A stretch of 37,047 nt of DNA from a virus. The notes beneath the pieces are model-generated. The model ran no database searches, had not been told where the DNA came from, and saw only the letters and a list, made by a program, of their open reading frames with translations. Where the stretch lies: the IMG/VR virus record IMGVR_UViG_3300048672_000136, positions 1-37,047 of that record; one strand, 5' to 3'. This document shows positions 397 through 35,630 of this stretch, one piece after another (positions within the stretch are counted from its first letter, which is position 1; each line of letters starts with the position of its first letter). A program made the translations under genes and the position numbers.

Positions 397-852
397 ATGA
401 CTAATTTTGATCGAGTTCGTGAAATATGTAGCGGGTGGGGATTATACCAAGTCAGCACAGAATTGACACAGATTTTATACGCGGTTAGTGAGGCTGGCGA
501 GCTGGCTAAGTCAATCGCTAAAAATGACCGTGAGCAGGCGCGTGACGATATTGGTGACGTATTGGTGTGCTTGATTAATGCTTATGAGCTAAGTGGAAAT
601 GAAAACCATTTGGAGGATCAGGTTGATTTTGAAATAAAACAACTGGATAACTTAACGGCATTTGGTTTATTGATTGAAGGGTTTGGAAGCCAAATTATTA
701 ATAATAGTTTTCGTTATTCTGGCGTGGCAATTTCAATCGCAACTATTGCCAGCAATATGTTACTGACTATTGACGAATGTTTATTGCAAGCTATTAGCGA
801 GATTGAAAAGCGAAAAGGCAAGATTGTTAATGGAGTGTTTGTAAAAGATTAA
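397..852 (+). CDS. MazG-like nucleotide pyrophosphohydrolase, first gene of array 1
   Basis: 151 aa. The first half has the MazG-like helical metal-binding pattern: E32-A-G-E35 (ExxE) and, after about 15 residues, D51-I-G-D54 (xxxD). Relatives hydrolyse NTPs or dNTPs to monophosphates and are common phage accessory genes. The second half (about 75-151) is unassigned and ends with a short charged helix. The ATG is preceded by GAGGG at normal distance. The stop codon lies inside the R'' box of the first attC, as in true cassettes. However, no R' box complementary to that R'' is found upstream, so this gene is probably a fixed leader gene of the array. Confidence 0.7.
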   Translation: MTNFDRVREICSGWGLYQVSTELTQILYAVSEAGELAKSIAKNDREQARDDIGDVLVCLINAYELSGNENHLEDQVDFEIKQLDNLTAFGLLIEGFGSQIINNSFRYSGVAISIATIASNMLLTIDECLLQAISEIEKRKGKIVNGVFVKD

Positions 853-979
853 CGCCAAGCTAAGCGGCAGGATTTAAGTTGTGATTTTGTGATAAAAATT
901 TACGCAGTAAATTCACAAAAGCGCGACTTAAAGACTGTCCAAGGAGCGTAGCGACTGGTGCTTGAGCGCCTTGTTATGC
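847..979 (+). other. attC: attC site 1 (133 bp)
   Basis: R'' GATTAAC (847-853) and R' GTTATGC (973-979). L'' contains GCTAAGC and L' contains GCTTGAGC, whose reverse complement is GCTCAAGC: identical but for one extra base, the expected extrahelical base. The centre is longer than in its neighbours. Confidence 0.85.
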
Positions 980-1012
980 AAATTTAACGAAGTGATATTT
1001 TGGGGTAAACAA

Positions 1013-1339
1013 ATGAAAATTGCAAAAGCTAGCAAAGAAGATATGGACATGGCGATTGACCTTGTTTCAGTTTTAGAAACATTAGAGCGCGGTTATATTC
1101 CGAGCCAAATGGACGAAGGCGACGAAGACGGCTATGGGTATTTTGATATTGACGATAAAACCCAGTGCCGAGAAGTATTGAAAGTAATTTTAGGCATTTT
1201 AGAAAAAGGCTCAATTGGTCGGGTAGTTTGGGGAATGGCTACTCTAATTGATCCAGCAAATAAAGTGGTTAATCCTGACGCCAATGCTCTTGAGTTACAC
1301 CCAGAATTGCAAAAACTACTTTCAGCGCAAAGTGCATAA
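1013..1339 (+). CDS. Hypothetical cassette protein, 108 aa
   Basis: First true cassette of array 1. The ATG at 1013 lies 34 nt after the attC 1 R' box; upstream in-frame codons fall inside attC 1 and are not used. The protein is acidic, with a DEGDEDGYGYFDIDD stretch around residues 36-50, then a predicted helical part (REVLKVILGILEKGS) and a short C-terminal tail. I recognise no catalytic motif. Small acidic proteins of this kind occur in both phages and integron arrays; the function is unknown. The stop codon is within the R'' box of attC 2, so gene and recombination site are tightly fused. Confidence 0.75.
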   Translation: MKIAKASKEDMDMAIDLVSVLETLERGYIPSQMDEGDEDGYGYFDIDDKTQCREVLKVILGILEKGSIGRVVWGMATLIDPANKVVNPDANALELHPELQKLLSAQSA

Positions 1340-1418
1340 CGCCGAGTTCAGCCCGTGGCTGGGAGTAGGAATTAATGGCGAGATGGTAATTCCATCGCGC
1401 TGCAACGACTTGTTAAGT
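1334..1418 (+). other. attC: attC site 2 (85 bp)
   Basis: R'' GCATAAC (1334-1340) and R' GTTAAGT (1412-1418), a perfect GTTRRRY. L'' GTTCAGC faces L' GCTGCAAC (reverse complement GTTGCAGC), one extrahelical base. R'' is the exact complement of the R' at 973-979 that opens the same cassette. Confidence 0.9.
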
Positions 1419-1430
1419 GAGGATACCGAA

Positions 1431-1652
1431 GTGAGCACTAAAGATTTAAATTTATTTTGTGAATTTGATGGCGAAACAACAATGCACGAAATTGAGACCG
1501 AGGAAGGCAAATTAGTTCTTGTATCTCATTGCGAAGGCGGCCATGTTCAATGTTATGCAGATTTGGAAAAGTTGCTTGAATATATGGCGATTAATTACCC
1601 TGAGTTATACATGAAGAACGTAACAAGCAAGATGATGCGAGATTACACTTAA
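1431..1652 (+). CDS. Hypothetical cassette protein, 73 aa
   Basis: The likely start is GTG 1431, 12 nt after the attC 2 R' box, with AGGA at 1420-1423. Longer in-frame versions run back through attC 2 and into the previous gene and are rejected. The sequence opens with a beta-rich segment (LNLFCEFDGETTMHEIETEEG, about residues 6-26), then KLVLVSHCEGGHVQC and a helical end (LEKLLEYMAINYPELYMK). No family recognised. The stop lies inside the R'' box of attC 3. Confidence 0.65.
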   Translation: MSTKDLNLFCEFDGETTMHEIETEEGKLVLVSHCEGGHVQCYADLEKLLEYMAINYPELYMKNVTSKMMRDYT

Positions 1653-1730
1653 CGCTGAGCTAAAGCGCTGCGGTACACAAGTGACAATAGCGCAAATTTC
1701 TAGGCAGTCGCTTTGAGTGACTGGTTACAT
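1647..1730 (+). other. attC: attC site 3 (84 bp)
   Basis: R'' ACTTAAC (1647-1653) and R' GTTACAT (1724-1730). L'' GCTAAAGCG faces L' CGCTTTGAGT (reverse complement ACTCAAAGCG): one extrahelical base and one mismatch. R'' complements the opening box GTTAAGT at 1412. Confidence 0.88.
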
Positions 1731-1761
1731 TTACATATCTGAATAAATTACGGAGTGAATT

Positions 1762-1980
1762 GTGGATAATTATTATTGGACAACCGAGCAACCGCACGGA
1801 AGCAATACTACAACAATGTGCGACTTTATAGAAAACCATAACTCATGGCTTCACATTGATACTGTTGACGGGAGTTATGCCGAAGGCGTTGATACAAGCG
1901 GTGCGAGATGGGAAATACATGCTGGCGGCAACGGCAATTTTAATGACCATGTTGTGCGTTTTAAACTGATAAACGAGTGA
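1762..1980 (+). CDS. Hypothetical cassette protein, 72 aa
   Basis: GTG start at 1762 with CGGAG at 1751-1755. A small protein rich in aromatic and polar residues: DNYYWTTEQPHGSNTTT at the start, a central SWLHIDTVDGSYAEG-VDTSGARW segment and a final VVRFKLIN beta strand. It looks like a compact beta protein. No family recognised. It stands alone in its cassette, with attC 3 31 nt upstream and attC 4 starting directly after the stop codon. Confidence 0.7.
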   Translation: MDNYYWTTEQPHGSNTTTMCDFIENHNSWLHIDTVDGSYAEGVDTSGARWEIHAGGNGNFNDHVVRFKLINE

Positions 1981-2066
1981 ATGTAACGCCAAGTTCAGCC
2001 CGTGGCGGTATGAGTGTAGAGAATTGCGCGGTGTAAATTCCATCGCGCTGGAACGCCTTGTTACAT
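1981..2066 (+). other. attC: attC site 4 (86 bp)
   Basis: R'' ATGTAAC (1981-1987) and R' GTTACAT (2060-2066), perfect complements. L'' GTTCAGC faces L' GCTGGAAC (reverse complement GTTCCAGC), one extrahelical base. The centre resembles attC 2 and attC 5, so these cassettes share one lineage of sites. Confidence 0.9.
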
Positions 2067-2079
2067 TTTGGAGGACGAA

Positions 2080-2292
2080 ATGAAATTTAAAGTAGCAGTA
2101 TCAGTTTTTCATTTTAAAGACCTTAGCTTTCCTTTGTGGAATAAGGTTCACATGGTTTTAGATGGTAACAAGCGAGATTTGATTAATTTGCAAGATCAAC
2201 TCGCAGACTTAAAAAGTGATATTAATTCAGATATGAACAAACGCGGTATTGCATTGCGTGACGTTGATATTTTTATTGATTTTCTGGACTAA
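2080..2292 (+). CDS. Hypothetical cassette protein, 70 aa
   Basis: ATG 2080 is 13 nt after the attC 4 R' box with a strong GGAGG at 2070-2074; an in-frame TTG at 2068 overlaps the ribosome site and is not preferred. The sequence starts with MKFKVAVSVFHFKDLSFP, an Ile/Leu/Asp-rich middle (DGNKRDLINLQDQLADL) and ends DVDIFIDFLD, suggesting a small mixed alpha/beta fold. No family recognised. The last base of the stop codon is the first base of the next R'' box. Confidence 0.72.
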   Translation: MKFKVAVSVFHFKDLSFPLWNKVHMVLDGNKRDLINLQDQLADLKSDINSDMNKRGIALRDVDIFIDFLD

Positions 2293-2376
2293 TGTAACGC
2301 CGAGTTCAGGCGTGGCAGTATGAGGGTAATTAAATAGCTAGATGGTAATGCCATCGGCTGCAACTTTTTGTTATGT
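2292..2376 (+). other. attC: attC site 5 (85 bp)
   Basis: R'' ATGTAAC (2292-2298) and R' GTTATGT (2370-2376). L'' GTTCAG faces L' CTGCAAC (reverse complement GTTGCAG), one extrahelical base. R'' complements the cassette's opening GTTACAT at 2060. Confidence 0.88.
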
Positions 2377-2413
2377 GCAACTTTGCTTGCGAATAACTAA
2401 CTACGGGGGTTTT

Positions 2414-2623
2414 ATGAAAACTAAAGTGAAAGTTTTACAAGATGTAAACCAAAGCGCAATAACCGAAGGTGATATTGGCTACATTGATGGATACGTCAGG
2501 GCTGCTGACGATAGACCTTACGCGGCAGTGGTAATACCAGCAAAAAAGATTATTGATTGGTGCCCATTGTATACCTTGGAAATCATCAATGATGACATGC
2601 ATAGTAATTTAGGGGAAGTGTAG
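2414..2623 (+). CDS. Hypothetical cassette protein, 69 aa
   Basis: ATG 2414 follows a GGGGGT ribosome site; earlier in-frame ATGs lie in attC 5. The sequence has an SH3-like small beta pattern: MKTKVKVLQDV, a turn with TEGDIGYIDGYV, then AAVVIPAKKIIDWCPLYTLEII. Proteins of this pattern often fold as small beta barrels, but I cannot name a family. It is the first of two genes in the last cassette of array 1; its TAG is directly followed by the ATG of the next gene, so the two are probably translationally coupled. Confidence 0.7.
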   Translation: MKTKVKVLQDVNQSAITEGDIGYIDGYVRAADDRPYAAVVIPAKKIIDWCPLYTLEIINDDMHSNLGEV

Positions 2624-2827
2624 ATGGAAATAAAAGGCTTTAAAAGGTGGTTTGGTGCGCAGAGATTATTTTGTGGCAACGATGGAGTGAAGGTGGCTGA
2701 GCTTGCGTGGGTTGCTGCACAACGTGAGATTGTTGATTACATACATGATAGCGTGATAGATGACTGTGAAACTGCGGAAGATTGCAGGAAAGCTCTTATA
2801 AATTTAAGTATGAGGCTCAACACATAA
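2624..2827 (+). CDS. Hypothetical cassette protein, 67 aa, phage-early style
   Basis: ATG abuts the preceding stop codon, with GGGGAAG about 8 nt upstream. The protein is mostly helical, with a FKRWFGAQRLFCG opening and a KVAELAWVAAQREIVDYI helix. This AW-AAQ pattern is seen in many small early proteins of temperate phages, so the cassette may carry a phage-adapted gene; that is an impression, not a family match. The TAA stop (2825-2827) lies within the R'' box ACATAAC at 2822-2828. Confidence 0.7.
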   Translation: MEIKGFKRWFGAQRLFCGNDGVKVAELAWVAAQREIVDYIHDSVIDDCETAEDCRKALINLSMRLNT

Positions 2828-2828
2828 C
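2822..2828 (+). other. Orphan attC R'' box ending array 1
   Basis: ACATAAC is the exact reverse complement of the GTTATGT opening this cassette at 2370-2376, so it is the left end of the cassette's own attC. What follows (AGTTTATTCTACGG) has no L'' box, and no matching L'-R' is found downstream. The site is truncated. Array 2 ends the same way at 35401-35407. Confidence 0.7.
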
Positions 2829-2872
2829 AGTTTATTCTACGGCCCAATAAATATATTTACGTTTTTTATTTT

Positions 2873-2919
2873 TAGCATTTGCTTAAAATTCAATAGCTTG
2901 CAAAGTGCTAATGTTTTTT
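2873..2919 (+). terminator. Probable terminator closing array 1
   Basis: TAGCATTTGC (2873-2882) pairs with GCAAAGTGCTA (2900-2910), one bulged base, followed by ATG and a six-T run (2914-2919). The block around it resembles the terminator block after array 2 (35426-35508). No protein gene is seen in 2828-3014. Confidence 0.5.
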
Positions 2920-3014: not shown

Positions 3015-3590
3015 ATGCAGCGTAAAGAGTTAAAGCCAAAGAAGTGCGCATTATGCGGTGAAAGATTCATTCCGTTTTCATCACTTGCAAAAGTATGTTC
3101 GATGGCGTGTAGTCTTGATTACGTTGGGGCGCAGGCAAAAAAACAGCAGGATAAAGCGGCTAAGGCTCAAAAAAAGGAGTTTCTCGATAATGACAAGTCA
3201 TTCCAGCGCGCAAAGGCCCAGAAATCGTTTAATGAGTTTATCCGATTGCGTGATGCTGGATTGGGTTGTGTCTCTTGCGACAAGACAATCGACTGGCATG
3301 GTCAATGGCATGCTGGACACTATAAAACAATTGGGGCGCGACCAGATTTGCGCTTTAATGAATCAAATGTTCATAAGCAATGCAGCCAGTGCAACAACTT
3401 TCTAAGCGGCAATGTAGCGATGTACAGGATTGAGCTTATAAAGCGCATAGGTGAGGATAGAGTGCTTGAGATAGAGAAAGATGCTGGCAATCCGATGAAG
3501 TACACTGCAAGCGATTACAAAGCGATACACACTCAATACACAAAAAAGGTTAAAGAACTACGTGCAAGACTGGAAACAACAACAAATTAA
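3015..3590 (+). CDS. ninG: NinG-like recombination protein
   Basis: 191 aa, close to lambda NinG (Rap, about 204 aa). An N-terminal zinc-binding motif (C-ALC at residues 11-14, then C28 and C32) and a second cluster, CVSCDK near 90-95, GHYKT, and HKQCSQCNNFLSG near 120-132, match the NinG arrangement. The protein assists phage recombination, resolving branched DNA with RecBCD or Red-type pathways. ATG 3015 is used; the upstream GGATTAATTA region gives a usable ribosome site. It is separated from ninB by cassette array 1. Identity is recognised from motif order. Confidence 0.9.
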   Translation: MQRKELKPKKCALCGERFIPFSSLAKVCSMACSLDYVGAQAKKQQDKAAKAQKKEFLDNDKSFQRAKAQKSFNEFIRLRDAGLGCVSCDKTIDWHGQWHAGHYKTIGARPDLRFNESNVHKQCSQCNNFLSGNVAMYRIELIKRIGEDRVLEIEKDAGNPMKYTASDYKAIHTQYTKKVKELRARLETTTN

Positions 3591-30747: not shown

Positions 30748-31401
30748 TTATTTAATGTATTCGTCATGTGATAACGCAAATTCTTTAACTGCGTTTTCTA
30801 TCCAAAGATTAGCTTTTGCGCATCGCTCTAGCATTTCTTTCTCAATATCCATATCGCGTGTGTATCGCGCTATAGTTATTCTGTAATGGGCTGGAATAGC
30901 GCTATCAATAATATGTATTGATGTATCATCCCACGGTTTTAATATTTCTTCTGGTGTATCTATTGCGCAGTAGGCTATCTCCCATTCAGGAAGATCAAAC
31001 AGGCACATATAGCCGCGTGCTTGCCATTCATAGCCTTTTTTGTCTGCATCTTCTGCTGTTAATGGAAACGTAAGCAAAGACCAAGCTATTTTAATATCAA
31101 CGCCTTTTTTTGAATGCGCGGCAACTAAATCAGGTTCGCCAGTAATTATCCCATTATTGCGCCTTTCGTTGCTTTCTACTTTTTTCAAATCATACAAAAA
31201 AACGTCATTGTATAATTTAATGCCTTTATCTTCACATGCGCGGCCTTTTTGTATTGCTTGCATATCGTCAAGATTTTTACGCACACCAAATAGAATCTCT
31301 CGCACAGATTCCATCATTGCGGCTTTTGCTGTTTCAGACCATTCAGCGCTTTTTGATTGCGGCTTAGTCATTATTTTATCAATTAAGCTACATCTAATCA
31401 T
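30748..31401 (-). CDS. YqaJ-like phage exonuclease
   Basis: 217 aa. PD-(D/E)XK nuclease signature: E57 in ACEDKGIKLYND, then TGEPD91L and VD102-I-K104 with the usual spacing, and YEWQ127ARGYM, matching the YqaJ/lambda-exonuclease QxxxY helix. It would degrade the 5' strand of double-stranded ends to make 3' tails for the annealing protein. The start at 31401 overlaps the previous stop in ATGA with AGGTG upstream. It is paired with a RAD52-like annealing gene, a typical two-component recombination system (established for lambda Red and related phages). Confidence 0.85.
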   Translation of the reverse strand: MIRCSLIDKIMTKPQSKSAEWSETAKAAMMESVREILFGVRKNLDDMQAIQKGRACEDKGIKLYNDVFLYDLKKVESNERRNNGIITGEPDLVAAHSKKGVDIKIAWSLLTFPLTAEDADKKGYEWQARGYMCLFDLPEWEIAYCAIDTPEEILKPWDDTSIHIIDSAIPAHYRITIARYTRDMDIEKEMLERCAKANLWIENAVKEFALSHDEYIK

Positions 31402-32051
31402 GATTGCACCTGATCATTCAGCACTTTTAATTGTGATTCTGTTAAAACAAAGCTAGATAAAAGCCTTTCTTTTGTGTATTCACCGCTTTTGATTTTTGCA
31501 ATTGCTGCTGCTAATCGGCTATCAGCTATATTTTCTTTCGGTACAGCATTTAATGGCTGTGAGCTATTATCTTCTTCTTTTGGTAGATGAAGGTCGCCTT
31601 TGTGCCAAAGATCAAGCGCGCAACCAAAGCGCATAGCAGCGTTTCTAAGTGCGTCACCAATTAATTCCTTGACTGCATCACCGCCATTTTTGCCGGTTGC
31701 ATCGCCATACCCTAAGCGGGTAACGCCAAGAATAGTTAGCTTTATCCAAAGGCCGCCATTATCATCTTTTGCCGGCAATCCTTTTGAATCATAAGCTAAT
31801 GGCTCCCAATACCATGATGGGTCAACTTCTAGCAATCTATCAGTGATTGCCGCGTGACCAACATAATCAAGGTGAACAACTTGCGGATGATGCCAAGCGT
31901 TGCAGAGATTGCATCGTATTCCTTTGCTAAAATCGGCCTTTACTGCATCTGTTTGCGCTTTGGTTGGCTTTGGTAGCTTGCCTATATGGTGAGGCGCAAA
32001 AGGCTGCCTAAGAGCATTTAAACCGTTTCTGATTTGTTCGTTATTGTCCAT
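31398..32051 (-). CDS. RAD52-like single-strand annealing protein
   Basis: 217 aa from ATG 32051 with GGAG at good distance (the 7-residue longer form is unlikely). The sequence VVHLDYVGHAAITDRLLEVD, then WYWEPLAYDSKGLP, LWIKLTILGVTRLGYGDA and GGDAVKELIGDALRNAAMRFG is the N-terminal RAD52-type annealing domain of phage Sak-like proteins. There is also a CxxC (C47, C50) with HH at 54-55 and H60, like a small zinc knuckle at the start of the domain. It anneals complementary single strands. The upstream 50-aa gene overlaps it by 11 nt, so translation is coupled. Confidence 0.85.
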   Translation of the reverse strand: MDNNEQIRNGLNALRQPFAPHHIGKLPKPTKAQTDAVKADFSKGIRCNLCNAWHHPQVVHLDYVGHAAITDRLLEVDPSWYWEPLAYDSKGLPAKDDNGGLWIKLTILGVTRLGYGDATGKNGGDAVKELIGDALRNAAMRFGCALDLWHKGDLHLPKEEDNSSQPLNAVPKENIADSRLAAAIAKIKSGEYTKERLLSSFVLTESQLKVLNDQVQS

Positions 32052-32193
32052 GATCCATCTCCATAACTTCAATGCTTGCTACAACGCGATTCCATATTTT
32101 GCGCTCAGCATTATCCAAATAATCAGGAGGCGTCATTGATCCAGTGCGTATATACTGATTAACAATCAGCGCCTTAATTTCATTGTCGTTCAT
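32041..32193 (-). CDS. Hypothetical protein, 50 aa, early operon
   Basis: ATG 32193 is preceded by GAGGG at good distance, and the gene overlaps the annealing-protein start by 11 nt. The product is helical (NEIKALIVNQYIRTGS, DYLDNAERKIWNRVVAS, IEVMEMDHG). The two helices with an intervening PP may form a small helical hairpin. No family known. Coupling with the RAD52-like gene suggests a linked role or simple control. Confidence 0.65.
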   Translation of the reverse strand: MNDNEIKALIVNQYIRTGSMTPPDYLDNAERKIWNRVVASIEVMEMDHGQ

Positions 32194-32751: not shown

Positions 32752-32928
32752 ATGAAAAAGATTTATCAAAAGCCAGTAATGTTACCAGTTGCAGTTAAAG
32801 AGCAATTAGACGATATGCTAATTAAGGTCAATGATTTAAGGGATTCAAAAGGCATGGTAAGGCTATCTAGGGGCGATTTAATCAGTCGCGCATTGAGAAA
32901 ATACAATGTAAATCACGGGGCGAAGTAA
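32752..32928 (+). CDS. Small ribbon-helix-helix-like regulator, first gene of array 2
   Basis: 58 aa. MKKIYQKPVMLPVAVKEQLD reads as a beta strand followed by helix (PVxLPxxVKExLD), then SKGMVRLSRGDLISRALRKY as a second helix; this is the Arc/MetJ plan in miniature, with R42 and R48 as basic residues in helix two. It lies just downstream of the palindrome, so it could bind the operator and control both arms and both cassette arrays. The RHH call is from pattern only. The stop codon is inside the R'' box of the first attC of array 2. The R' box matching that R'' is missing, as for the MazG-like gene. Confidence 0.55.
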   Translation: MKKIYQKPVMLPVAVKEQLDDMLIKVNDLRDSKGMVRLSRGDLISRALRKYNVNHGAK

Positions 32929-32981
32929 CGCAGAGCTAAACCGTGCCGTTTGCGGCATCGTGTTTCAGCGACTTGTTATGT
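32923..32981 (+). other. attC: attC site A (59 bp)
   Basis: R'' AAGTAAC and R' GTTATGT. L'' GCTAAAC faces L' GTTTCAGC (reverse complement GCTGAAAC), one extrahelical base. The centre GTGCCG/CGGCAT forms a short stem with a TTTG loop. Its length equals the classical 59-base element. Confidence 0.92.
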
Positions 32982-33004
32982 GCAACTTTTACTTGGAGTA
33001 AATA

Positions 33005-33238
33005 ATGCGAGATGAAACGATTTTATTAATAGCACACAGAACAGCGTGGAAATACAAATATAGTACAGACCCGCATCATTCAGACACTTACACTTTTAAT
33101 GATTCGTGCATGTTAGATTTTGCAAGGAAATTATTAGAAGCAGGCAAAGCTGAAAACGAAACCGAAATTGATATTCCGTACCCAGAAGGGTGCAAACTTT
33201 GTAATGTTGCAAGTGGCTGCGATGGTAGTTGCTACTAG
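33005..33238 (+). CDS. Hypothetical Cys-rich cassette protein, 77 aa
   Basis: ATG 33005 is 24 nt after R' of attC A with GGAG upstream. The N-terminal part (RDETILLIAHRTAWKYKY) is helical, the middle is FARKLLEAGKAE and the C-terminus is CKLCNVASGCDGSC, four Cys in 14 residues that could bind a metal. No family recognised. The stop is followed by one base and then the R'' box of attC B. Confidence 0.7.
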   Translation: MRDETILLIAHRTAWKYKYSTDPHHSDTYTFNDSCMLDFARKLLEAGKAENETEIDIPYPEGCKLCNVASGCDGSCY

Positions 33239-33239
33239 C

Positions 33240-33376
33240 ACATAACGCCGAGTTGTGCGGCAGGCAGCCCAGACTAATTGGAGAATAAAATGCTTAAAGA
33301 AAATGAAGGCCAAGAACAAAACTGCATTGGGCTGACTGTCCAGCGCGAAGCGCGATGCACCAACGACTTGTTAAGT
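33240..33376 (+). other. attC: attC site B (137 bp)
   Basis: R'' ACATAAC (33240-33246) and R' GTTAAGT (33370-33376). L'' GTTGTGC faces L' GCACCAAC (reverse complement GTTGGTGC), one extrahelical base. The centre is extra long and holds a possible small gene. Confidence 0.82.
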
Positions 33377-33400
33377 TTTACGGGTGGTACATGCAAATGA
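33290..33400 (+). CDS. 36-aa frame running through attC B
   Basis: ATG 33290 lies 5 nt after GGAGA and the frame crosses L', R' and ends TGA at 33398-33400, where ATGA starts the next gene. Hydrophilic peptide (KENEGQEQNC, REARCTNDLL). A real ribosome site inside the attC centre and coupling to the next cassette gene make it a possible translated leader; the coding evidence is otherwise weak. Confidence 0.35.
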   Translation: MLKENEGQEQNCIGLTVQREARCTNDLLSFTGGTCK

Positions 33401-33567
33401 CTTTTATTGAACACAGAAGCAAAAACGAATGTTTTTTATCTTACAGAATACCGTTCTTTTTTGATAAGCGAACATTCGGACATATTGACAGGTTACGAGC
33501 ATTTCAAGCTCTAGGTTTTGAGTCTGAATGTTTTATTTTTAACAAACAACTAAGTGAGCGATTTTAG
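33397..33567 (+). CDS. Hypothetical cassette protein, 56 aa
   Basis: The preferred start is ATG 33397 with GGGTGG about 8 nt upstream; ATG 33391 would add two residues. Aromatic and basic: FIEHRSKNECFLSYRIPFFF, then KRTFGHIDRLRAFQALGF. It looks like a small alpha/beta protein. No family. It is the first of two genes in this cassette; the second starts just after its stop. Confidence 0.6.
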   Translation: MTFIEHRSKNECFLSYRIPFFFDKRTFGHIDRLRAFQALGFESECFIFNKQLSERF

Positions 33568-33568
33568 G

Positions 33569-33775
33569 ATGATTACTTTTATGCAAATTTCAATTTTGGT
33601 TCTCTGCTACGTTTTTATTTTAATGCCAGCTATTGGTTCTGCGGTAATAAAATATCCATGTTGCTGCGATTATTTTGATTCTCTTAAATCTGGTTTAAAA
33701 GTAACCTTTTTTGTGTTTCTTGCTGCTGGAATTTTTTTCGCTTTTATTTGGGCGACTGCTGGCCTAACCGAGTAG
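33569..33775 (+). CDS. Two-span membrane protein, 68 aa, in a cassette
   Basis: ATG 33569 comes one base after the preceding stop with TAGGA upstream. Membrane spans at residues 5-26 (MQISILVLCYVFILMPAIGS) and 44-64 (KVTFFVFLAAGIFFAFIWAT), separated by a Cys-rich loop (YPCCCDY, residues 29-35). The three adjacent Cys may be modified or bind metal. Integron cassettes often carry membrane or surface-linked genes. Function unknown. The stop is followed by one base and then R'' of attC C. Confidence 0.68.
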   Translation: MITFMQISILVLCYVFILMPAIGSAVIKYPCCCDYFDSLKSGLKVTFFVFLAAGIFFAFIWATAGLTE

Positions 33776-33776
33776 A

Positions 33777-33861
33777 ACTTAACGCCGAGCACAACGGCGG
33801 CACACTCAAGTCAAGGCAATGCGCGATTCTAGCACCGTCCGCTTGCTGCGACTTGTTATGT
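33777..33861 (+). other. attC: attC site C (85 bp)
   Basis: R'' ACTTAAC (33777-33783) and R' GTTATGT (33855-33861). L'' GCACAA faces L' TTGCTGC (reverse complement GCAGCAA), one extrahelical base. R'' complements the box at 33370. Confidence 0.85.
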
Positions 33862-33882
33862 TTTACCGAGCGGGAGATTAAC

Positions 33883-34080
33883 ATGTTTGAAGACCATATG
33901 TGTATAGTTGAAGAATGTGAAAAATCAGAAAAATGCCACCGTTTTATGGCTAAACCTAAAGAGCGGGGGCAAGCGTTTTTCATTGACAATGACCACGATG
34001 AAAACGGGTGCAATTATTTTATACCAGCAACGGAGAATGATTATGATAGACGTAGAAGAAGCTTACAAAAAATGGGTTGA
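33883..34080 (+). CDS. Hypothetical Cys-containing cassette protein, 65 aa
   Basis: ATG 33883 follows GGGAG about 8 nt upstream. C7, C12 and C18 (CIVEECEKSEKC) and C43 may bind a metal; the C-terminus is basic (YDRRRRSLQK). Similar small phage proteins with C-x4-C-x5-C starts are common in early regions, function unknown. The leader from R' to ATG is nearly the same as that of the cassette at 35090. The next gene overlaps its 3' end in another frame. Confidence 0.65.
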   Translation: MFEDHMCIVEECEKSEKCHRFMAKPKERGQAFFIDNDHDENGCNYFIPATENDYDRRRRSLQKMG

Positions 34081-34201
34081 AAGCCCGCTTGGCGTAAACT
34101 GCCAAAACACAGAAATACTAAAACATGAAGAGTACAGGCGCGTGCTCTTGGCAGTTATGAAGCAAGCATTTATTGCTGGGTTTTATTCAAATGAACAATA
34201 G
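34043..34201 (+). CDS. Hypothetical cassette protein, 52 aa, overlapping
   Basis: ATG 34043 lies within the 3' part of the preceding gene, with GGAGA 9 nt before. The product MIDVEEAYKKWVESPLGVNC, then HEEYRRVLLAVMKQAFIAGFYSNEQ, is helical and shows the A-x-K-W-V-S-P-G pattern seen in small phage early proteins with an AFxAGF end (a commonly recurring phage helix). It is in the same cassette as two other genes. Function unknown. Confidence 0.6.
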   Translation: MIDVEEAYKKWVESPLGVNCQNTEILKHEEYRRVLLAVMKQAFIAGFYSNEQ

Positions 34202-34349
34202 AATTGCAAAAAAGATTTTAACTCAGGTTAGCAGCTTGCACCTGAGTGAAAAATCAGTAATTAAGGCAAGAAAGCAAGCAGCTAAAAACCGTGGTTATTT
34301 TAAAGGTAAAGCCATATATCTATGGCCGACACTATTCTCACCAAGGTAA
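34191..34349 (+). CDS. Hypothetical basic protein, 52 aa, end of cassette
   Basis: ATG 34191 overlaps the preceding stop by 11 nt, with no clear ribosome site; translation probably depends on the upstream gene. Basic helices (NRIAKKILTQV, SVIKARKQAAKNRGY) suggest nucleic acid binding. The stop TAA is directly followed by R'' of attC D, which supports that the frame is real because cassettes normally end with a gene. Confidence 0.5.
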   Translation: MNNRIAKKILTQVSSLHLSEKSVIKARKQAAKNRGYFKGKAIYLWPTLFSPR

Positions 34350-34435
34350 ACATAACGCAGAGTTCAGCGGTGCGCTGACTGAGCAACATTAAGAACTGAG
34401 TCTTACCACGTATCCGCTGGAACGACTTGTTACAT
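34350..34435 (+). other. attC: attC site D (86 bp)
   Basis: R'' ACATAAC (34350-34356) and R' GTTACAT (34429-34435). L'' GTTCAGCGG faces L' CCGCTGGAAC (reverse complement GTTCCAGCGG), one extrahelical base in an otherwise perfect stem. Confidence 0.92.
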
Positions 34436-34467
34436 TTGCATAGCAATTTAATTTAGGAACAATAGCC

Positions 34468-34695
34468 ATGAAAGAAAAAGAAGATTTAATTAATTTAAAG
34501 AAAACCGAACTAAAGGTCGCACAAGAAAAGCTAAATAGAAGTCGCAGCGATTCCGATTTAGTGAGAGTTATTTCGCTTGCCTGCGAAGTGGCAGGAATGC
34601 TTCAAGATATGTACGTTAGCGTGCGCGATAAAAATTCTGAATTAGAGGATGAAGTTAAACAACTAAAATCAGTAATTAATACACTGACGACCTAG
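34468..34695 (+). CDS. Coiled-coil cassette protein, 75 aa
   Basis: ATG 34468 comes with TAGGAA upstream. Almost fully helical, with heptad-like charge pattern: KEDLINLKKTELKVAQEKLNR, then SDLVRVISLACEVAGM and a C-terminal DKNSELEDEVKQLKSVI coil. Likely a dimer or a partner of another helical protein. No enzyme motif. It ends just before R'' of attC E. Confidence 0.7.
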   Translation: MKEKEDLINLKKTELKVAQEKLNRSRSDSDLVRVISLACEVAGMLQDMYVSVRDKNSELEDEVKQLKSVINTLTT

Positions 34696-34698
34696 TGA

Positions 34699-34784
34699 AT
34701 GTAACGCCTAGCTAAAGCGCGGCATGAAGATGCCAGAACAGAAAACAAATTTACGAACCGTCGCCTTTGAGCGACTTGTTATGT
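34699..34784 (+). other. attC: attC site E (86 bp)
   Basis: R'' ATGTAAC (34699-34705) and R' GTTATGT (34778-34784). L'' GCTAAAGCG faces the L' block GCCTTTGAGC (reverse complement GCTCAAAGGC), with one extrahelical base. An inner GCATGAAGATGC hairpin is visible in the centre. Confidence 0.88.
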
Positions 34785-34813
34785 GACGGAACTAGAGATT
34801 AACTAAAGAGGCA

Positions 34814-35023
34814 ATGAATATGGAATGGAACAAAATATGGCAGGATGGTGTACGAGCTTGCACACCACCTGTAGGGGTATGGGTAGAATTTTATGATGGC
34901 GAAAAAACAATGCGAGGCGAGCTATTGCACCACATTGATCAAATAGATAAATATGGCGACTGTGTAAATAATTACTTAATAAATTACACGCACTGGCGCT
35001 ACCTTTCAGCACCGAACACATAA
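34814..35023 (+). CDS. Hypothetical cassette protein, 69 aa
   Basis: ATG 34814 with AGAGG upstream. The pattern W-x4-A-x3-P-x-GVWVEFYDGE, then a polar loop and a final THWRYL is like small phage proteins of the DUF551 type that open W-x-P-x-G-x-V-V and end H-W-x-L (from memory, not tested). It looks like a small beta protein. It ends inside the R'' box of attC F. Confidence 0.65.
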   Translation: MNMEWNKIWQDGVRACTPPVGVWVEFYDGEKTMRGELLHHIDQIDKYGDCVNNYLINYTHWRYLSAPNT

Positions 35024-35096
35024 CGCCGAGCTAAACCGCAGCCGTCAGGCTGTCGAACGTAGCGAAGCGAAGTGGTGTTTGAGCTACTTGTTATGT
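35018..35096 (+). other. attC: attC site F (79 bp)
   Basis: R'' ACATAAC (35018-35024) and R' GTTATGT (35090-35096). L'' GCTAAAC faces L' GTTTGAGC (reverse complement GCTCAAAC), one extrahelical base. R'' complements the box at 34778. Confidence 0.92.
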
Positions 35097-35118
35097 TTTA
35101 CCAAGCGGGAGATTAAAC

Positions 35119-35400
35119 ATGATTAGAAATAAAGTTAGGGTTTGCTTTTTTCTTGAAAACGGAAACAAGCAAGAGGAAGGGGAAGCTAGTGCGCACTGGG
35201 AGCCTATAAACTTTCAGATTTACAGTAATCTGTTCCCTGAATTGATTCAGGATGCAATAGATCAGTGGTTGGCAGATAACACGATTAACCATAACTGTAC
35301 GCATGAAGTTATTTTTTCTCATGTGGTTGATAGAGATGGAGCTGGCGCGGTTGTTGGAGAGTATTTTGAACCGATATGGCACGAAAGCCAGAATTGGTAA
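35119..35400 (+). CDS. Hypothetical cassette protein, 93 aa
   Basis: Last gene of array 2. ATG 35119 comes after GGGAG in a leader almost the same as that of the cassette at 33855. The start (RNKVRVCFFLENGNKQEEGEA) is beta-like, then SNLFPELIQDAIDQWLADNT is helical and a beta end (HEVIFSHVVDRDGAGAVVGEYFEPIW) follows. No family known. The TAA stop abuts the orphan R'' box. Confidence 0.7.
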   Translation: MIRNKVRVCFFLENGNKQEEGEASAHWEPINFQIYSNLFPELIQDAIDQWLADNTINHNCTHEVIFSHVVDRDGAGAVVGEYFEPIWHESQNW

Positions 35401-35407
35401 ACATAAC
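35401..35407 (+). other. Orphan attC R'' box ending array 2
   Basis: ACATAAC complements the GTTATGT at 35090, but the sequence then goes AGCGATATAACAGG with no L'' and no matching L'-R'. Same truncation as at 2822-2828, and both continue with AG. Confidence 0.7.
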
Positions 35408-35425
35408 AGCGATATAACAGGCGCA

Positions 35426-35440
35426 GGCCGTATATTTCCA
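35426..35440 (+). repeat. 15-bp GGCCGTATATTTCCA repeat behind array 2
   Basis: Exact copy of 2961-2975. A related GGGCCGTGTATTTACGG lies at 35538-35554, on the other side of the terminator. No protein gene is seen in 35408-35689. Confidence 0.6.
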
Positions 35441-35472
35441 GTTTTTATTTTTATCAACTCCAACAAAATCAA

Positions 35473-35508: not shown

Positions 35509-35630
35509 CGCAAAAATAAAAACGGGGTGTAGATATAAGGGCCGTGTATTTACGGTTTTATTTGGTGATGTGGGCAAGTAAGTGGTTTTTTTATTTCAAT
35601 AAATATACTAAAAGATTAATAAATTAAATA

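Follow-up and report, generated by a model that had tools for sequence, protein, structure and literature searches.

Two integron-type arrays in an uncultivated phage

The stretch of DNA analysed here, the window, comprises positions 1–37,047 of IMG/VR record IMGVR_UViG_3300048672_000136, an uncultivated viral sequence that encodes ninB, a MazG-like protein, ninG and terminase. A sequence-only reading had placed an integron-type array of five attC recombination sites, all in one orientation, inside the nin region of this phage. The array (array 1) does lie there, between the MazG-like gene, which follows ninB, and ninG, and a second array of six attC sites (array 2) occupies positions 32923–35096 (Table 1). 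No protein in the window record matches the tyrosine recombinase family PF00589.

Our bacterial reference set comprised 80 loci encoding integron integrases, and an attC profile (position weight matrix, PWM) was trained on 112 bacterial attC sites located beside intI genes. All 11 window sites score about 27–44 bits with this profile, and shuffled phage DNA, 1.13 Mb in all, gave no match of at least 26 bits (shuffles for this and the attI profile described below, both Python profiles, preserve single-base composition only). An Infernal covariance model (CM), R2, was built from 25 bacterial attC sites, a few of them from Cellvibrionaceae and none derived from phages. Run with filters off, it recovered exactly the same 11 sites (5 + 6) with E-values of 1.4e-8 to 1.4e-3, which rest on a short calibration, and no further attC in the window. 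No Rfam family matched at gathering thresholds. The covariance-model check proposed with the sequence-only reading therefore returned all five of its sites and added the six of array 2; the attC array is confirmed at the positions in Table 1.

The sites carry the R''/L''/L'/R' boxes, the extrahelical base and the R'/R'' relation between cassette ends by which integron attC sites are recognised. As had been read for array 1, each of the 11 window cassettes closes with an R'' that is the reverse complement of the R' at its own opening. Across related phages the rule is kept in 82 of 96 cassettes (permutation mean 13, maximum 29), while R' of the same site matches R'' in merely 13 of the 96. In 10 of the 11 window sites two exact stems are separated by one extra base, at site position 16; in array 1 four of five have it, and the site at 1647–1730 fails the strict test, so that the extrahelical base reported earlier for all five sites stands for four. 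Related phages have it at position 16 in 81 of the 86 sites showing one. When folded freely, only 35018–35096 in array 2 forms a textbook cruciform; the other window sites, including all of array 1, fold partly. A search motif, TAACAGCGNTATACACGG, was too narrow and was dropped, and L175, an unrelated prophage, was set aside because its match to the pattern was due to chance.

Cassette genes run against the arrays

All 11 window sites match the attC profile on the minus strand only, and the open reading frames (ORFs) of the cassettes lie on the plus strand. At bacterial loci the canonical site TAACAAG...GGCG|TTA (the bar marks the crossover) sits on the strand opposite intI. Since the window sites are canonical on the minus strand, their recombinogenic bottom strand is the plus strand of the window; folding of the minus strand, as had been suggested, gave weak structures because in an inverted array this is the canonical top strand. 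With the crossover at TAA|C on the plus strand, the attC precedes the ORF in each cassette, and the five of array 1 span 853–2827. A reading that joined attC1 to mazG and left the last cassette without an attC was overturned by the orientation of canonical bacterial sites relative to intI. The array had also been read along the direction of its ORFs; it is inverted instead, with ORFs antisense to attC and its start at an attI-like site beside ninG. The last box, ACATAAC at 2822–2828, is the R box of that site and not of a missing attC.

The inversion extends to related phages, where, of 99 cassettes with a decided orientation, 97 run antisense and 2 sense, whereas bacterial loci have 59 sense and 5 antisense cassettes (64 in all) and Cellvibrionaceae chromosomes 40 and 3, all of these counts depending on automatic ORF choice. 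Phage cassettes are also shorter, with a median attC spacing of 259 nt against 541 nt in bacteria. A Shine-Dalgarno-like sequence directly follows the R box in 114 of 136 cassettes of the phage set, and the cassette ORF terminates at the R-box TAA in 70 of the 136. Complete integrons transcribe sense cassettes from a Pc promoter; here ORF polarity is opposite to the direction of the array.

An attI-like element opens each array

In the minus-strand direction, each array opens at a 57-bp attI-like element, recognised, like the attI of a complete integron, by its place at the array start, and identified by sequence only. Its consensus aligns without gaps at the canonical start of 22 phage arrays, and the conserved core ends in CGCTG|TTA or ATAAACTG|TTA. 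Scored by leave-one-out with a 40-bp attI profile, most sites reach 27–47, and 2.26 Mb of shuffled DNA yielded no match at 14 bits. In 20 of 32 arrays the upstream phage ORF takes its stop codon from the R-box TAA, and in 28 of 32 a stop lies within 30 nt. Because the element follows a stop codon, insertion would spare the phage gene and append genes behind it.

The attI palindrome has a further, incomplete copy (GGGCCGTATATTTCC-like), in many cases inverted, about 50–130 bp from the attI-like site (2958–2973 and 35538–35553 in the window; around 125 in L158, 8549 in L159 and 7549 in L005). This copy may serve as an accessory binding site or as a terminator.

Cassettes differ between conserved flanks

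More than 20 viral contigs, independent of each other and from many samples, have the same array architecture. PF00589 is without a match in 26 of the 28 viral records of the set, about a dozen of these 33–48 kb long; the two positive records belong to a 65-kb phage and to a prophage that is unrelated and has no attC.

G001, the nearest large relative, is 80–83% identical to the window in nucleotide sequence over morphogenesis genes; its ninB–ninG interval is free of arrays, and it carries two at other places. One of its array locations is common to contig L004. Both flanks are 82% identical there, and the arrays have attC sequence alone in common and no ORF, even by tblastx. Array 1 of the window and contig L173 likewise have an identical 154 bp that includes attI (100%), next to dissimilar arrays with no cassette in common. 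Unrelated cassettes between matching flanks of related phages indicate that the sites are evolutionarily active. The 136 cassette proteins of related phages fall into 127 clusters, and a few near-identical cassettes (93–97%) occur in different phages. Sites of 94–96% identity recur across phages while almost all cassette ORFs are unrelated: attC5 of array 2 is that similar to sites in L155, L157 and L165, and attC2 of array 2 is 91% identical to a site in L178. Within an isolate-phage collection array 2 was unmatched, and array 1 matched only an attC of Shewanella phage M16-3; a scan with the window gene at 31398–32072 as query returned only one distant relative.

Most phage cassettes have no assigned function, and the window's own cassettes belong to no clear protein family. 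Named cargo in related arrays includes two Lar-type restriction alleviation proteins (a Lar-like gene at L166:6702–6926), an Acb2/Tad1 hairpin protein (L159:9003–9260), a DNA methylase, an RNA ligase, PAPS-reductase-like proteins and an exoribonuclease. The cargo consists of accessory phage genes, with likely counter-defence genes among them. The attI-proximal ORF of G001 (L281, 18017–18871) encodes a TET-associated glycosyltransferase (E 7.5e-49), which suggests that genes for DNA hypermodification travel in these arrays.

Cellvibrionaceae as candidate hosts

The attI model matches Cellvibrio, and at E ≤ 1e-3 it matches 17 of 144 Cellvibrionaceae genomes. Several of these matches adjoin intI and open long attC arrays with sense ORFs (L236, L245, L246, L247). 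Sites in phage contigs L178 and L172 are 94–95% identical, over 109–129 nt, to chromosomal attC sites in L245 and L236, respectively, and over 129 nt attC1 of the window has 81% identity with an attC of the chromosomal integron L245. Two Cellvibrionaceae metagenome-assembled genomes (MAGs) hold phage-type contigs that have this attI and seven antisense but no sense cassettes, the larger of which encode portal, terminase or primase. Judged by these similarities, Cellvibrionaceae are the best candidate host, at the family level only.

Other chromosomal attI-like sites in the family (L234, L235, L238, L239, L243, L244, L248) have no intI within the fetched 14–19 kb and apparently are dispersed orphan attI sites. 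Several species have two to five model matches of this type per genome, some of them followed by attC and sense cassettes. Contig L172 contains a rare sense-oriented phage cassette, with a 215-aa ORF at 1683–2330 and an attC at 2325–2438 that is 94% identical to a chromosomal attC (L236); it is a candidate for recent capture from a host.

Proposed phage capture sites loaded by a host integrase

We propose, with a probability of about 0.78, that each array is an integrase-less integron platform of the phage, loaded by the integron integrase (IntI) of the host and inverted in polarity so that its cassettes extend a phage operon. Direct support comes from the attC sites, the similarity of the attI-like sites to host attI, the inverted polarity, the turnover at fixed sites and the lack of a recognisable recombinase in the window record. 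According to this proposal, the phage would bear an attI-like site that immediately follows the stop codon of one of its genes and points against phage transcription. In a host with a chromosomal integron, most plausibly one of the Cellvibrionaceae, host IntI working in trans would recombine circular cassettes into the phage attI, and attC × attC exchange would reshuffle them. With attI inverted, a captured cassette would be useful to the phage only if its ORF were antisense to attC. The circulating phage pool would then hold short cassettes, mostly of one ORF with its own Shine-Dalgarno sequence and often with a stop made by the R box. Expression would come from read-through from the upstream phage gene, not from an integron Pc promoter, with the cassettes presumably co-transcribed with the phage operon; inverted polarity may have been favoured by selection, given that the phage would read the cassettes as part of its own operon. 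Selection for counter-defence may maintain the system. Host IntI is often under SOS control. We consider it slightly better than an even bet that the system is lineage-wide, such that Cellvibrionaceae phages keep one to three private attI sites and a pool of inverted cassettes in which host IntI, at DNA damage or infection, diversifies counter-defence genes.

Several points weigh against this proposal. Recombination at these sites is something we infer from sequence. The arm symmetry of the attI-like site shows no covariation beyond permutation (5.81 against 5.69 of 9 pairs; 292 of 1000 permutations reach the observed value), and no empty attI-like site was found in the viral records compared, so that the state before insertion is itself a deduction. 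The records are uncultivated and linear, and a recombinase might be encoded outside the contigs or be of an unrecognised kind. The host assignment rests on attI and attC similarity and on MAG membership, the latter of which can be a binning error. Finally, no phage cassette protein matches an ORF in the fetched Cellvibrionaceae integron loci, leaving direct, recent uptake of entire host cassettes without support.

Passive capture would explain the arrays as relics of host integron pieces that entered phages by illegitimate or homologous recombination. It has been proposed for phage attC clusters by Qi et al. 2023 (PMC9892861), and some phage sites are indeed near-identical to chromosomal attC of the host. 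We nevertheless regard it as unlikely, given that host arrays are sense and longer whereas phage arrays are antisense and short, that many loci have the same attI-like site, and that cassettes are exchanged between conserved flanks with the R'/R'' rule kept. Somewhat less probable still is a phage-encoded recombinase of an unrecognised family acting in place of host IntI. A distinct cassette pool of inverted polarity and an attI that differs in detail from known bacterial ones would suit such an enzyme, but profiles of IntI substrates recognise the attC sites, genuine attI sites associated with IntI match the phage attI, and almost all records are devoid of a tyrosine recombinase.

The sites might also be attC-resembling hairpins with a regulatory role, acting as attenuators or in RNA processing between small early genes, since they lie between co-directional small genes, most of which have their own Shine-Dalgarno-like sequence. 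This is very improbable: R boxes pair across cassette ends and not within a site (82 versus 13 of 96), the profile fits only the strand opposite the ORFs, and the extra base keeps one fixed position. An assembly artefact joining phage and bacterial contigs, which the metagenomic origin of these uncultivated contigs brings to mind, merits the least credence of all. Both arrays are internal to the phage contig, bacterial arrays have the opposite polarity, and the recurrence of the architecture effectively refutes a chance join, in keeping with the sequence-only reading.

Relation to known integrons and phage attC clusters

Having five and six attC sites and no nearby intI, the arrays are clusters of attC sites lacking integron-integrases (CALINs) by the published definition, which asks for at least two such sites. 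They depart from the usual picture of a CALIN as a remnant without its own attI, in that an attI-like site is present and cassettes turn over; a complete integron would have intI next to attI, and the record has no PF00589 protein.

Integrase-less attC clusters in phages, including Pseudoalteromonas phage H101/PH101, were described by Qi et al. 2023 (PMC9892861), and their presence alone is therefore not new, contrary to what the sequence-only reading had supposed. Five of the six phage attC sites assayed there, that of PH101/H101 among them, recombined with attI1 through IntI1. Those CALINs of virulent phages resemble ours in having small attC-bounded cassettes and no integrase, but that study reports no phage-wide attI, polarity inversion, fixed-site turnover or host attI link. 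In our own scan all ORFs of the H101 cluster (NC_029094, 75919–77987) are antisense to attC, a polarity that the accessible text of the paper does not mention. Tetrasphaera phage TJE1, scanned likewise, has sense-oriented cassettes, so inversion is not universal in phage arrays. Shewanella phage vB_SspM_M16-3, a prophage with an integron plus a CALIN, has an attI at the start of its integrase-less array and one stretch 78% identical to attC1 of the window; it differs in carrying a complete host-like integron with intI and in being inactive (PMC9892861). The sedentary chromosomal integrons of Cellvibrionaceae have the same attI type and attC architecture, and some attC sites 94–95% identical, but carry intI and have longer, sense cassettes (40:3).

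In our literature search, which took in no preprints and only a minority of subscription journals, Qi et al. was the sole work on phage attC; a compost study with Cellvibrio and integrons proved unrelated. A common phage attI, systematic inversion, cassette replacement at conserved phage sites and a link to Cellvibrionaceae appear to be undescribed in that literature. If the proposal is correct, these phages run capture sites of their own on a host integrase, with gene polarity fitted to phage transcription, which goes beyond integron debris: an integron turned around would serve as a phage "weapon rack". It would also explain the fixed-site swapping of small accessory genes between phages, including anti-restriction genes and genes directed against cyclic-oligonucleotide-based (CBASS) or Thoeris-like defences. 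The arrays may be a handy place to look for unknown counter-defence genes, and they make it testable whether bacterial integrons and their phages have a common cassette economy.

Features of the window

Coordinates are collected in Table 1. The stop codon TAA of the MazG-like gene coincides with the R-box TTA of the recombination site, the junction reading GATTAA|C.

Table 1. Genes, recombination sites and cassettes of the two arrays
Feature	Position	Strand	Evidence
MazG-like phage gene, upstream of array 1	397..852	+	PHROG 1992, E 8.7e-23
Array 1 attC1, long host-type site	847..979	-	PWM 44.5; CM E 2.9e-7
Array 1 cassette 1: attC1 and ORF 992/1013-1339, antisense to attC	853..1339	+	ORF list; boundaries from TAA|C crossover
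Array 1 attC2	1334..1418	-	PWM and CM
Array 1 cassette 2: ORF 1431-1652	1340..1652	+	ORF list
Array 1 attC3, weakest in CM	1647..1730	-	PWM; CM E 0.0014
Array 1 cassette 3: ORF 1762-1980	1653..1986	+	ORF list
Array 1 attC4	1981..2066	-	PWM and CM
Array 1 cassette 4: ORF 2080-2292	1987..2297	+	ORF list
Array 1 attC5	2292..2376	-	PWM and CM
Array 1 cassette 5: ORFs 2414-2623 and 2624-2827	2298..2827	+	ORF list
Array 1 attI-like site, crossover ...GTAGAATAAACTG|TTATGT	2822..2878	-	leave-one-out score 30.4
NinG/Rap gene, downstream of array 1	3015..3590	+	PHROG 171, E 2.4e-70
58-aa phage ORF, upstream of array 2, stop codon inside R box	32752..32928	+	
Array 2 attC1	32923..32981	-	PWM and CM
Array 2 attC2, long; loop holds start codon and short frame	33240..33376	-	PWM and CM
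Array 2 attC3	33777..33861	-	PWM and CM
Array 2 attC4	34350..34435	-	PWM and CM
Array 2 attC5	34699..34784	-	PWM and CM
Array 2 attC6	35018..35096	-	CM E 1.4e-8
Array 2, six cassettes	32929..35406	+	ORF list
Array 2 cassette ORFs	33005-33238, 33554-33775, 33908-34201, 34173-34349, 34468-34695, 34814-35023, 35119-35400	+	
Array 2 attI-like site, crossover ...CTGTTATATCGCTG|TTATGT	35401..35457	-	leave-one-out score 37.7

Long attC sites whose variable loop holds a start codon, a short frame and a Shine-Dalgarno-like sequence were seen in array 2 of the window (attC2) and in two other contigs, L018 (1328–1445) and L178 (6637–6774).

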